DNA of 64,000 nucleotides from Peptococcaceae bacterium 1109 (GTDB lineage Bacteria; Bacillota; Limnochordia; Darwinibacteriales; Darwinibacteriaceae), in contig LDJB01000002.1 of assembly GCA_001028815.1 (NCBI GenBank), positions 496,001 through 560,000 of the forward strand, read 5' to 3'. Position numbers and translations under genes: made by a program. Below, piece after piece: positions 37,403 through 40,896 of this stretch (the first letter of the stretch is position 1; every line of letters starts with the position of its first letter). The notes beneath the pieces were generated by a model, which saw only the letters and a list, made by a program, of their open reading frames with translations, had not been told where the DNA came from and made no database searches.

Positions 37403-38749
37403 CTACAGTAGGATCGCCTCCACGATCTTGAAGTAAACCAAAAGGCCCACAGCATCCACGATGGTGGTAATCACTGGAGAGGCCATGATAGCCGGATCCG
37501 CTTTTAGGACTTTTGCCAGCATGGGGAGGATCCCACCAACGGTCTTAGCCACTACCACAACAGCCATGAGACTCACAGAAACGGTCAGGGATAAGATGGG
37601 CTCTCCAGGGTGAATGAGGTAGATCCGTACGAAGTTGAGGGCCCCTAGGGATGCTCCCACAACTAGGCTGATGCGAAACTCCTTCCACAGCACTTTGAAG
37701 AAATCGTTTGGCCTGATTTCGTCAACAGCCATGCCGCGAATAATGAGGGTGGCACTCTGGGAACCGGCATTGCCGCCTGTATCGGTAAGCATGGGAATAA
37801 AGCTTACCAGGAGCGGAATTGCCAAAAAAGCTTCTTCGTAACGCTGCAGCACAACGCCAGTTACGGTGGCGGACAGCATCAAGACAGCCAGCCAAATAAT
37901 CCGGTGCCTCGCGAGCTCCCACACACTTGTCCTGAGATAAGGCCGCTCCGTGGGGCTGGTTGCCGCCATTAACTGGAAGTCTTCCGTGGCTTCCTGGGTA
38001 ATAACTTGAACAACGTCGTCAACAGTGACAATTCCCACCAAGCGGTTTTCCTGGTCCACTACCGGCAGAGACAAGAGATCGTACTTGGCAAACAAGCGAG
38101 CCACATGCTCCTGGTCATCGGTGGTGGTGGCAGAAATAATCTTGGTGTCCATGATATCCCCGATTAGGGTATCTTCGGGGGCCACAAACAGCTCCCGGAC
38201 GGTAATAATTCCTTCCAAATGGCGGTTTTCGTCCATGACGTAACAGGTATAAATGGTTTCCCTGTCTACCGCGTCCCGGCGAATCCGGGCAAAGGCATCC
38301 CTTACCGTCATGGTCTTTTTGAGGCCCACAAACTCAGCGGTCATGATGCTTCCTGCTGAGTCCGGAGGATATTGGAGGAATTGGTTGATCAGAGCCCGGG
38401 TGTCGGGGGAGGCGTTCTTTAGGACCCGCTTTACCACACCCGCTGGCATCTCCTCCAGAAAGTCCGCGGCATCATCCACGAACAGCTCGTTGATGATATT
38501 GGCAATTTCCTGGTCAGTGATGGACTTTACAATCTGTTCCTGCATGTCATAGGACAGGTAGGAAAAGACCTCTGCCGCTGTGTCTTTGTGCAGTGCCCGA
38601 AAGGCAATGACAATGTCCTCTCCCGCGAGCCTTTCGATGAAATCGGCAATATCCACAACGTTAAGCTCTTCGAACTTCTCCCTAAGCTCTTTGAGCTGTC
38701 TGGCTTTAAGCAATTCAACAAGTACAGCATAAGTCGTTGCTGCTGCCAT
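37403..38749 (-). CDS. mgtE: Magnesium transporter MgtE
   Basis: A 448-residue MgtE. It has an acidic N domain (residues 5-125: VVDIADFIERLAGEDIVIAFRAL), two CBS domains (about 130-250: DRETIYTCYVMDENRHLEGIITVRELF; LLSLPVVDQENRLVGIVTVDDVV), a plug helix and five membrane helices. The pore motif PMLTDTGGNAGSQSATLIIRG is intact. It is a dimeric channel gated by cytosolic Mg2+. ATG 38749 follows AAGGAGGAGG. A 206-nt structured leader (38750-38955) precedes it. Confidence 0.95.
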   Translation of the reverse strand: MAAATTYAVLVELLKARQLKELREKFEELNVVDIADFIERLAGEDIVIAFRALHKDTAAEVFSYLSYDMQEQIVKSITDQEIANIINELFVDDAADFLEEMPAGVVKRVLKNASPDTRALINQFLQYPPDSAGSIMTAEFVGLKKTMTVRDAFARIRRDAVDRETIYTCYVMDENRHLEGIITVRELFVAPEDTLIGDIMDTKIISATTTDDQEHVARLFAKYDLLSLPVVDQENRLVGIVTVDDVVQVITQEATEDFQLMAATSPTERPYLRTSVWELARHRIIWLAVLMLSATVTGVVLQRYEEAFLAIPLLVSFIPMLTDTGGNAGSQSATLIIRGMAVDEIRPNDFFKVLWKEFRISLVVGASLGALNFVRIYLIHPGEPILSLTVSVSLMAVVVVAKTVGGILPMLAKVLKADPAIMASPVITTIVDAVGLLVYFKIVEAILL

Positions 38750-38955
38750 GTTTTGATCCTCCTCCTTGGTAAGATTGTAACCAATCGGAGCGACAAAAAC
38801 GGACAGCGGCCAGCACTGCCTATGCAAGCAGCAAGGCGCGAGTGAGCGGCTCGCTGATTTGGCACAAGCGTCGCTGGTCTACATCTGTGTCCGTTTGAGC
38901 GCCTCGACAGTCAGGAACCACTCATCTCACCCCTTTACGTATAGAGTATGCTTCT
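38750..38955 (-). promoter_or_regulatory. Structured attenuator-like leader of mgtE
   Basis: On the minus strand AAACGGACA (38888-38896) can pair with TGTCCGTTT (38797-38805). Nested inside are CCAGC/GCTGG (38873-38877 with 38810-38814) and GCGAG/CTCGC (38838-38854). Alternatively the 3' part forms a compact terminator (38801-38820) followed by five U. The two states share bases and exclude each other, the logic of a transcription-attenuating riboswitch. I see no M-box consensus blocks, so the ligand and class are open; a metal ion such as Mg2+ is the obvious guess from the gene controlled. Confidence 0.6.
38795..38820 (-). terminator. Candidate attenuator hairpin in mgtE leader
   Basis: Minus strand GGCAGTG, CTGGC loop, CGCTGTCC (one bulged T), then G and five T. 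It lies about 46 nt before the mgtE start, so it would stop transcription before the gene. Confidence 0.6.
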
Positions 38956-40866
38956 TTAGTTTGCTACTGGAAGCTGGAATTGGCTGAGCTTATCTCCAAG
39001 GACAGCTTGGAGGAACTGGGCCACTGTTTGAATGGGCACAATCTCAACTTCCGCAGCTTGTTCTGATATTTCATCCCAGTTATCCTGGGGGACAAACACT
39101 TTCTTCACCCCAGCCTGTCTTGCCCCGTAAATCTTAGGATGGAGGCCGCCGACTGGTTTAACATTCCCCCGAATGGACAGCTCCCCGGTGACGGCGATAT
39201 CTTGAGGGAGGGGAACTTGCCACACCGCGCTGATAATCGCGGCCAGTATAGCCACGCCGGCAGAGGGGCCATCAATGTTCCCTCCGCCCACCACGTTGAC
39301 GTGGATGTCGTAATCGCTGAGCTGTTTCCCTGTAAGGCTGCGGAATACAGCCGCTGCGTTTGCCACACTGTCTTTGGCCATGGAGCCCGCTGTATCGTTG
39401 AAGCGGATAGCGCCCTTCCCTTTTTCACTGCTGGGAAATGCTACCGCCTCAATTTCTAAGACGGAGCCTAGATAGCCGCTTACGCCCAGGCCCAATATGC
39501 GCCCCACTTCCTCGTTGGCAGAGGCTTTCACTCCCACATAAGGGCTTAAACGGGCCGACTGAATCACCTCTTGGATGTCTGCCAAGGTGATGACAAGGCC
39601 AGCCAGATCACCATCTTCCCGCTTGTACAAGGCGGTGCTGTAAGCATCAGCTAGGAGCCGGGCCGCCTGCCGCCCCTCAATGGTAAATTCAGAGATCATC
39701 TTGGCGACGCCCTCTTCTAGCTCCGCACCGAGGCGCTCTGCCGCAGACTCCACAATGGCCACAATATCCTGGGGAGTCAAGGGATCAAAGAACACCTCTG
39801 CGCAGCGTGAGCGAAACGCGGGACTGATTTCCCCAGGGTCTCGCGTGGTGGCCCCGATCAAGACGAAATCTGCCGGTGCCCCTTCTGTAAACAACTTATG
39901 GATGTACTTGGGGATCTGGGGATCATCCGGATCATAGTATGATGATTCAAAGGTAACCCGTTTATCCTCCAGCACTTTTAGGAGCTTGTTTTGGAGGATG
40001 GGGTCCAGCTCCCCGATTTCATCGATAAACAGTACCCCGCCGTGGGCTTGCGTAACGAGTCCTAGCTTCGGCTCGGGCACTGCCCCATCTGCAAGGTCCC
40101 GCCGGGCTCCCTGGTAAATGGGATCGTGAACCGAGCCCAAGAGTGGGTTAGTCACTTCCCGGGGATCCCAACGCAAGGTGGTGCCGTCAACTTCTACAAA
40201 GGGCGCATCTTCCCCGAAGGGGGTGTAGTTCTTCTCCTTGGCATATTTAAGGGCCAACCTCGCCACAGTGGTCTTCCCCACTCCAGGAGGGCCATACAGC
40301 AGAATATGCTGGGGGAAGGGTGAGCTGAGCTTTGTGAGCAAGGACTTAATGGCCCGCTCCTGCCCCACCACTTCTTCTAAGGCCTTGGGCCGCATCAACT
40401 CCAAGGTAGATCTGGACAGCTGTTTACTTTCAAGCATCTCCAGTTCCGCATACTTTTTCAGCGTCTGGGCGTTATCTGGGCCCCCTTCTTCCTTCAGAAC
40501 CTGCTGGCGAATCTCCTTCAGGTATTCCAAGTGCCGTTCTTGCATCTTGGCGCTGATCTTCTTCTCCAGCTTTTCCTCAAGGGAGCGGCGGGCAAGTAAA
40601 TCAGCTAAGTGCTCCGCAAGATCGTCGAGCATCTCGGGGATCTCGTCAAGCGCCCGTGGCTGCTCAATGGTGGGGTCCTCGTGGACAATGCGCTCTAAGG
40701 CAAGGACGCGTTCCTCAAGTTTTTCGGAACGCATCAAGGTTAACGAATCTAACTTTCCCGCCTTTAATACTAATTGATCTGCACCATGAATTTCTGCAAG
40801 TACAGCAAATAATGCGTTAACCTGCCTATCCAAGGAATTTGAATCTGTCGTTTGGTGTGTCAGCAT
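38956..40866 (-). CDS. lonC: ATP-dependent Lon-family protease LonC (sporulation type)
   Basis: A 636-residue Lon-like protease. A helical N-terminal region (1-160) is followed by an AAA+ module (Walker A LLYGPPGVGKTTVAR near 192, Walker B GGVLFIDEIGEL, IGATTRDPGEI). The C-terminal protease has catalytic Ser in GPSAGVA and Lys in NVKPVGGLHPKI. It lacks the LonA substrate domain and is longer than LonB, fitting the LonC subgroup of spore formers found between rplI and dnaB. ATG 40866 has GGGAGAGGG nine bases upstream; a TTG two codons earlier is possible. RplI lies just upstream. Confidence 0.9.
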   Translation of the reverse strand: MLTHQTTDSNSLDRQVNALFAVLAEIHGADQLVLKAGKLDSLTLMRSEKLEERVLALERIVHEDPTIEQPRALDEIPEMLDDLAEHLADLLARRSLEEKLEKKISAKMQERHLEYLKEIRQQVLKEEGGPDNAQTLKKYAELEMLESKQLSRSTLELMRPKALEEVVGQERAIKSLLTKLSSPFPQHILLYGPPGVGKTTVARLALKYAKEKNYTPFGEDAPFVEVDGTTLRWDPREVTNPLLGSVHDPIYQGARRDLADGAVPEPKLGLVTQAHGGVLFIDEIGELDPILQNKLLKVLEDKRVTFESSYYDPDDPQIPKYIHKLFTEGAPADFVLIGATTRDPGEISPAFRSRCAEVFFDPLTPQDIVAIVESAAERLGAELEEGVAKMISEFTIEGRQAARLLADAYSTALYKREDGDLAGLVITLADIQEVIQSARLSPYVGVKASANEEVGRILGLGVSGYLGSVLEIEAVAFPSSEKGKGAIRFNDTAGSMAKDSVANAAAVFRSLTGKQLSDYDIHVNVVGGGNIDGPSAGVAILAAIISAVWQVPLPQDIAVTGELSIRGNVKPVGGLHPKIYGARQAGVKKVFVPQDNWDEISEQAAEVEIVPIQTVAQFLQAVLGDKLSQFQLPVAN

Positions 40867-40896
40867 TGCCAAGTACCCTCTCCCACAATATTCCGC

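Follow-up and report, generated by a model that had tools for sequence, protein, structure and literature searches.

In Bacillota, the known Mg2+ device of mgtE-type genes is the M-box riboswitch. This Mg2+-responsive RNA (ykoK, RF00380) is described before such genes, e.g. B. subtilis ykoK, and in mycobacteria an M-box leader also carries a conserved small ORF, uORF2, which has a conserved N-terminal proline, is M-box controlled and Rho-dependent, and encodes a peptide that its authors call mycobacteria-specific (PMC12810186). Mg2+ sensing through faltering ribosomes is known from enterobacteria, for MgtL (PMC11282234) and mgtQ (PMC8092293). MgtL, the leader peptide of mgtA, bears an early acidic/proline motif, EPDP; at low Mg2+ ribosomes drop off, the RNA refolds, and the device acts by Rho-dependent termination of mgtA, according to the account in PMC11282234. 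mgtQ, as presented in PMC8092293, is an 8-codon ORF in the long intergenic gap before the MgtB transporter gene of Salmonella mgtCBRU. There, alternative stem-loops overlap the ORF and one of them masks the transporter ribosome-binding site (RBS), with an effect on translation; early Asp and Glu matter (Asp2/Glu5 effect), and, as long as region 1 is occupied by a ribosome, the RBS is released through 2:3 pairing. Finally, an orphan structured RNA before mgtE, the mgtE motif SRC-65-1, is reported only in Thioalkalivibrio (PMC11109978).

We analysed the leader of mgtE in Peptococcaceae bacterium 1109 (contig LDJB01000002.1), within a 64,000-nt stretch that we call the window and whose own numbering is used throughout:

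37403-38749, minus strand: mgtE, the putatively regulated gene, a Mg2+ channel/transporter (TIGR00400, 478 bits against a cut-off of 232.75)
38750-38955, minus strand: mgtE leader, the 206-nt gap between lonC and mgtE
38956-40872, minus strand: lonC-type protease gene, directly 5' of the leader (TIGR02903)

An earlier note on this DNA had read these 206 nt as a leader of mgtE without an M-box signature, and both points hold, the gap being flanked by lonC and mgtE. No Rfam 15 family reached its curated threshold in the leader, and a permissive scan of 38600-39100 returned two weak, implausible matches only. The M-box (RF00380, threshold 44 bits) matched neither in the leader, nor in the permissive scan, nor elsewhere in the own genome; yybP-ykoY, NiCo and all other Rfam families gave no match to the leader either. 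The M-box was found in 1 of 22 genomes of the window's family and in 8 of 36 genomes of its order. Across 20 related loci the Rfam scan detected M-boxes in L031 and L033 and a TPP riboswitch in L062 (3522-3628 of that locus, 3' of mgtE; RF00059, 65 bits), none of them within a leader of this type, and six further loci gave sub-threshold matches only, all outside the leaders. A known riboswitch class is thus rejected by Rfam scans of the leader and of its relatives' leaders, at curated and permissive thresholds. We also rejected a repeated or mobile element, since the whole leader is single-copy in its genome (one full match; seven fragments of 14-31 nt, E 0.9-6).

Inside the leader lies a short ORF upstream of mgtE (the uORF), which has a Shine-Dalgarno (SD) of its own, and two predicted helices, P0 and P1, overlap it; of the elements listed here, the uORF, P0 and the pairing of the anti-SD strand with the mgtE SD had escaped the earlier note:

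38926-38936, minus strand: SD region of the uORF, AAAGGGGTGAG; purine-rich SD sequences also stand beside the relatives' uORFs
38820-38921, minus strand: uORF, GTG start, 33 codons plus TAG, MVPDCRGAQTDTDVDQRRLCQISEPLTRALLLA (translation and frame conservation; same frame in L010)
38918-38933, minus strand: P0 5' arm, GGGGTGAGATGAGTGG, covering uORF SD and start (duplex of -29.1 kcal/mol, equalled by none of 200 shuffles)
38835-38851, minus strand: P0 3' arm, AGCCGCTCACTCGCGCC, within the uORF end
38888-38896, minus strand: P1 5' arm, AAACGGACA, inside the uORF at codons 9-12 (minimum free energy (MFE) fold, covariation)
38797-38805, minus strand: P1 3' arm, TGTCCGTTT (MFE fold, covariation)
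38787-38800, minus strand: anti-SD strand, GTTTTTGTCGCTCC, overlapping the P1 3' arm and pairing with the mgtE SD in MFE folds
38750-38765, minus strand: mgtE SD and spacer, GGAGGAGGATCAAAAC, predicted to be hidden or exposed by the switch

Judged by its anatomy, this leader would work like mgtQ and MgtL; we do not claim membership by descent. As in the mgtQ that PMC8092293 describes, a short ORF precedes a Mg2+ transporter gene, folds overlap the ORF, acidic residues come early and masking of the RBS is predicted. mgtQ has 8 codons and serves MgtB, whereas here the uORF has 33 and the gene is mgtE, and only the mgtE leader is predicted to sequester the uORF's own RBS with the uORF 3' end (P0) and to build P1 from the uORF itself. 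The likeness to MgtL, as given in PMC11282234, lies in a leader peptide with start-proximal acidic residues before a Mg2+ transporter gene: the window's uORF has an SD and encodes P3, D4, D11, D13 and D15. Unlike MgtL, its peptide (MVPDCR..TDTDVD) lacks EPDP, although some distant mgtE leaders of the class do resemble the MgtL start (MDPDPSR, MATEPEPSGEP, MEQGPSPRR). MgtL is Rho-dependent; for the mgtE leaders we predict instead a fold that masks the RBS, joined in Clostridia by a hairpin resembling an intrinsic terminator. The M-box, in turn, shares with our leader its place before an mgtE-type gene in Bacillota, but RF00380 matched neither in the window, nor in the own genome, nor in the scanned leaders of this kind; the mycobacterial leader shares a conserved small uORF in a Mg2+-linked leader, with M-box and Rho on the mycobacterial side only (both compared as in PMC12810186). 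SRC-65-1 is likewise an orphan RNA before mgtE, set apart by its published Thioalkalivibrio-only distribution (PMC11109978). The literature searched, i.e. open-licence PubMed Central without preprints, yielded no account of such an mgtE leader; PMC2965389, for one, mentions neither mgtE nor magnesium.

To follow the leader among relatives we surveyed mgtE loci. mgtE is present in 20 of the 22 genomes of the window's family (E <= 1e-60), and the order of lonC and mgtE is kept across it, with lonC upstream in the 19 family loci that have upstream sequence (in L026 by a short weak match only). lonC is not upstream of mgtE in L020, a locus from another family of the order. The 21 loci L009-L029 comprise 15 with the leader, L020 included, four that have lost it (L016, L021, L026 and L027), one without upstream sequence (L011) and one where it was not recognisable (L014). 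The mgtE of L020 (genome G026) is 64% identical to the window's and has the same leader, while the other mgtE of that family reach only 37-48%; gene and leader may possibly have been transferred together as a single module. A wider scan, of which we took the best 80 of 450 loci, brought in many from Lachnospiraceae or Ruminococcaceae/Oscillospiraceae genera. Among these 80, 64 loci lie outside the window's subfamily, and for 63 of them the upstream sequence is 300 nt or longer; 46 of the 63 show a GRS-type uORF preceded by an SD (doubtful in L115), and the other 17 lack one.

Our working set has 54 leaders. The window's group supplies 15 of them, a Ruminococcaceae type 14 and a Lachnospiraceae type 25. 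The counts exclude L011, the subfamily members L014 and L044 with unrecognisable uORFs, the four leader-less loci and 15 loci appearing in both mgtE scans. Twelve pattern matches were dropped (L034, L035, L037, L052, L068, L069, L071, L074, L086, L088, L113 and L121); in L052, L074 and L086 the pattern had taken the wrong frame. Leaders were aligned as A3 (the 15 of the window's group), A4 (13 of the 14 Ruminococcaceae type; L084 is counted but absent) and A5 (19 of the 25 Lachnospiraceae type).

The uORF frame is conserved. Frame 0 was open over the first 26 codons in 53 of the 54 leaders, compared with 17 for frame +1 and 4 for frame +2, and the stops per 1404 codons were 1, 50 and 100, respectively; this evidence is strong yet not independent, given the kinship of the leaders and the fact that an ORF search (10 codons or more) helped to find them. 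The start codon is GTG in 47 and ATG in 7. We rejected the alternative start at an ATG four bases further upstream, whose frame is not conserved and runs for 4 codons in the window, 13 in L028 and L029, and 9 in L045 before a stop. Recurrent N-termini are MDSGWRSMETSND, MDICGRSTKMDSDIH and MEGRSQKMEADNYH, the window's being MVPDCRGAQTDTDVD. Asp plus Glu in codons 2-15 averaged 3.0 in frame, whereas the two alternative frames averaged 1.06 and 1.13. An acidic pair, either adjacent or one apart, falls in codons 7-16 in 38 of the 54 leaders, versus 0 and 9 in the other frames; in codons 17-26 such an in-frame pair is seen in 7 only. These start-proximal acidic residues recur in frame from differing codons. 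At codon 2 the window has neither Asp nor Glu, which 10 of the 15 leaders in its group do have, and proline is sparse throughout (mean 0.16 to 0.8 in codons 2-15). Past the N-terminus the peptide is poorly conserved, and the differences by codon position (39/33/51, 23/17/30 and 285/296/315 in the three groups, the last being the largest) give little sign of amino-acid-level selection along the entire uORF.

An acidic start is also found beyond these groups. Among 39 other mgtE loci of the class (L130, a repeat of L038, excluded), 10 have an SD-preceded uORF beginning with Asp or Glu, some of these loci being closely related to one another. The reverse strand gives 1, and 200 mononucleotide shuffles average 0.96, with a maximum of 5. 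Examples are MDYDGPSRS, MDAGPERC, MDSGPKRQ, MEAGPSSY and MEQGPSPRR. In other families of the order, M-box and uORF can stand in tandem before mgtE (L031, L033, L137, L139 and L160), the uORF following the M-box and encoding MDAGPERC, MDSGPKRQ, MDGVPRC or MDSDSRPK. Such tandems are possibly two Mg2+ sensors in series.

Turning to the RNA, the MFE fold of 38748-38955 contains P1 (-74.3 kcal/mol, z -2.58, equalled by none of 200 shuffles). In A3, P1 was paired in 90.8% of cells, against at most 53.8% for slid controls, with two-sided changes at 7 of its 16 pairs. The long helix proposed in the earlier note is therefore confirmed, as are the compensatory changes in close relatives that it had named as a check. 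In A4, where P1 has two parts, the paired cells amount to 90.8% and 86.3%; the P3 hairpin is paired in 76%, with two-sided changes at 8 of 10 pairs, and P2 in 77% versus at most 55% in controls. In A5, P1, P2 and P3 reach 87.4%, 98.4% and 96.7%, with slid controls at 54.6% or less. Leader by leader, the P1 duplex beats at least 190 of 200 shuffles in 13/15 of the window's group, 3/14 of the Ruminococcaceae type and 15/25 of the Lachnospiraceae type, which makes P1 secure in the window's group but less certain in the other two. Exchanging arms between leaders showed a modest gain for own over swapped P1 (-16.6 vs -14.0, -13.3 vs -12.2 and -17.4 vs -14.8 kcal/mol, with middling ranks), and the case for P1 is built on the alignment column counts.

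P0 joins the SD and start of the uORF to its later part, the 3' arm mostly beginning at codons 22-28. It beats at least 190 of 200 shuffles in 46 of the 54 leaders, and its cognate arms pair better than swapped ones in the three groups (-24.8 vs -20.9, -19.9 vs -14.8 and -21.1 vs -16.9 kcal/mol), a stronger contrast than the same comparison gave for P1. Six leaders with GRS-type uORFs outside the set (L052, L061, L074, L085, L086 and L093) passed for P0 in 5 cases and for P1 in 4, with at most 10 of 200 shuffles as good. In 12 uORF leaders of other families P0 passed in 4 and P1 in 0, which indicates that these families share the uORF but not the complete switch; L036 and L127, with candidate uORFs resembling acidic/proline leader peptides (MATEPEPSGEP.., MEQGPSPRRG..), fail the shuffle test for both helices.

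P0 and P1 interlock, so they must be either alternatives or a pseudoknot, and the claim of mutually exclusive folds sharing bases ahead of a Mg2+ channel gene stands. For the window plus 18 nt of mgtE, the best P0 fold has -82.1 and the best P1 fold -79.0 kcal/mol. Under nested folding, the median P1 minus P0 energy was +4.7, +4.5 and -1.1 kcal/mol (window's group, Ruminococcaceae and Lachnospiraceae types), and the two folds lie within 5 kcal/mol of each other in 7/15, 5/14 and 11/25 leaders. Such closeness would also suit a riboswitch that senses directly, in which a P0 + P1 pseudoknot binds Mg2+ or another ligand and sets the anti-SD strand, the uORF being incidental or output only. This reading gains from the interlock itself, from the further helices P2 and P3 that P1 encloses in clostridial leaders, and from conservation at the nucleotide level: the segment GGUCGAAGU is almost invariant in clostridial leaders, and in one group all 25 leaders have CGA AGT unchanged even at wobble positions, which indicates RNA as much as peptide. 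Though it is the main rival to our own reading, we consider it unlikely, for the frame kept open in all but one of the 54 leaders, the acidic residues encoded by different codons, the Asp/Glu-start uORFs of other families and the lack of an Rfam family for the leader or its scanned relatives all speak against it. As for the copy number of a uORF motif, the exact 15-nt GTGGAAGGTCGAAGT has one mismatch-free copy, at the leader, in each of 9 Lachnospiraceae-type genomes; these were chosen for carrying it there, so the result is limited to the absence of a second exact copy. With one mismatch there are 7 more sites, and 33 for a reversed control pattern allowed the same.

The earlier note had taken a compact hairpin as the expression platform of a riboswitch-like attenuator:

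38802-38820, minus strand: compact hairpin, earlier proposed terminator and then given as 38801-38820 (not supported, -3.1 kcal/mol in the hairpin search)

We rejected this terminator. A terminator pattern scan, whose matches include the hairpin, returned 5 in the real sequence versus a mean of 4.7 in shuffles; the window leader has no stable hairpin followed by a U-run, and in its closest relative, L010, the hairpin is not kept at the same place, a different one (-10.1 kcal/mol) standing ahead of a weak U-run. Of the attenuator model, then, the exclusive folds ahead of mgtE, the missing M-box and the compensatory changes survive, whereas the terminator platform and a metal aptamer are unsupported. 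A U-run preceded by a hairpin of at most -9 kcal/mol was found in 2/15 leaders of the window's group, 12/14 of the Ruminococcaceae type and 21/25 of the Lachnospiraceae type. In the latter, P2 shares two alignment columns with the base of the U-run hairpin, and because of this overlap P2 is a possible antiterminator.

Which structure, then, could act on mgtE? The anti-SD strand reads GTTTTTATACTCC or a close variant in most relatives. In the window's group the 3' strand is mostly UUCGUUUUUAUACUCC, with a variant in the window, and it can base-pair with either the uORF or the mgtE SD region GGAGGAUAAAAAC; this sequestor being almost invariant in the group, covariation cannot test it. Its 14-nt block CGTTTTTATRCTCC, of which the window carries a variant, has 12 sites in the 36 genomes of the order, 11 of them just upstream of mgtE (the twelfth falls within or next to a long open frame that by eye has no relation to mgtE), and a reversed control pattern has 5 matches.

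We modelled the ribosome as a 30-nt footprint and computed the cost of opening the mgtE SD (kcal/mol). The mean over the 15 leaders was 5.7 without a ribosome, which is intermediate rather than open, 2.9 with one on codon 1, 4.7 on codon 3, 8.7-10.0 on codons 5-15, 9.2 on codon 18, 6.9 on codon 21, 3.4 on codon 24 and 7.3 at the stop (range 1.2 to 13.6). The window gave 5.8, 4.8, 6.5, 8.1-9.3, 8.5, 7.2, 3.7 and 8.9 at the same positions. On average, the model thus predicts a closed mgtE SD when the ribosome sits on codons 5-18 and an open one when it sits on codon 1. Scrambling 22 nt of the uORF including the P1 5' arm abolished the dependence on ribosome position (9.36 without a ribosome, 9.35 on codon 1, 9.47 on codon 9), and the real difference between positions was reached by 1 of 300 scrambled versions. 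There is variation among leaders: L015, L017 and L018 without a ribosome are as closed as their own scrambled versions, and L010 and L029 are still fairly closed at codon 3 (9.7 and 7.8). Both clostridial types show a weaker trend, with means going from 5.9 to 8.5 in one and from 2.4 to 4.4 in the other, and P1 and SD masking are less certain there.

The low cost at codon 24 could point to a stall near the uORF end instead of an early one, with a late ribosome holding P0 open and leaving the P1 strand free. The similar Cys/His/Arg tail of many Lachnospiraceae-type uORFs would fit with this, yet P0 pairing accounts for that tail, L078 has a different one (and a 1-nt gap), the modelled SD at the stop codon varies widely, and the acidic residues cluster early. 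We regard a late stall as improbable.

Comparison and modelling support the uORF frame, the predicted SD masking, and P0 and P1 as folds that overlap the uORF and are candidate controllers of mgtE. Our preferred reading, which we hold to be probable though far from assured, is that the leader is a translation-coupled switch which gates the mgtE RBS via the uORF; it fits better than the alternatives because the P1 5' arm sits inside a conserved uORF with its own SD. The short uORF would be translated from that SD, and its codons ~6-12 would pair, as P1, with the strand just before mgtE that otherwise masks the mgtE SD. Steady ribosomes would cover the P1 strand of the uORF, so that the anti-SD closes the mgtE SD and the gene is off; ribosomes pausing or dropping off in the early codons would let P1 form, freeing the SD and turning the gene on. 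Pausing would occur at start-proximal Asp, Glu, Pro or Gly and next at the acidic pair near codons 9-15, as expected at scarce Mg2+. P0 would shut the uORF's own SD using the uORF end, and uORF translation would probably be sustained for the most part by ribosomes holding P0 open. In clostridial relatives the hairpin and U-run would add a likely layer of transcription termination. We infer that the uORF is translated, that control runs in this direction, and that Mg2+ is the signal, with pausing or drop-off as its sensor. The early acidic residues agree with the EPDP motif behind low-Mg2+ drop-off on MgtL (PMC11282234) and with the Asp2/Glu5 effect in mgtQ (PMC8092293).

The surroundings of the leader differ among relatives. 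Other family members, e.g. L028 and L018, show by eye a terminator-like hairpin after lonC and a promoter-like site for mgtE; both are missing at 38940-38990 in the window's genus (window and L010), so that the leader starts directly at the lonC stop and, by eye, resembles an intergenic switch within an operon. The four leader-less loci belong to four genomes of one genus, in which uORF, P0 and P1 are all lost and mgtE begins, by eye, right after a uORF-type SD and a promoter-like site. Both the direct abutment on lonC in the window's genus and the loss in four relatives could be taken to mean that the leader is just a structured spacer of the usual kind, without a regulatory role, in a transcript shared by lonC and mgtE. 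Such a spacer is hard to reconcile with covariation in three leader groups, a conserved uORF frame and modelled switching that vanishes upon scrambling, and we give it very little credence.

More broadly, these leaders may represent a widespread, undescribed family of Mg2+-responsive leader-peptide switches governing mgtE in Bacillota, with interlocked P0 and P1, a uORF that sustains itself while ribosomes are processive, and mgtE switched on when they abort among the acidic codons. MgtL/mgtQ of enterobacteria would then have an independent counterpart in this family, which in Clostridia would add an intrinsic-termination layer; we advance this wider claim tentatively, as a possibility falling just short of an even chance. 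If true, ribosome processivity would be a more widespread Mg2+ gauge, linked here to a different transporter, and it would explain how mgtE may be controlled in an M-box-poor family and in many Clostridia. With one uORF, two interlocked helices and one gene, the leader would also make a clean test system.
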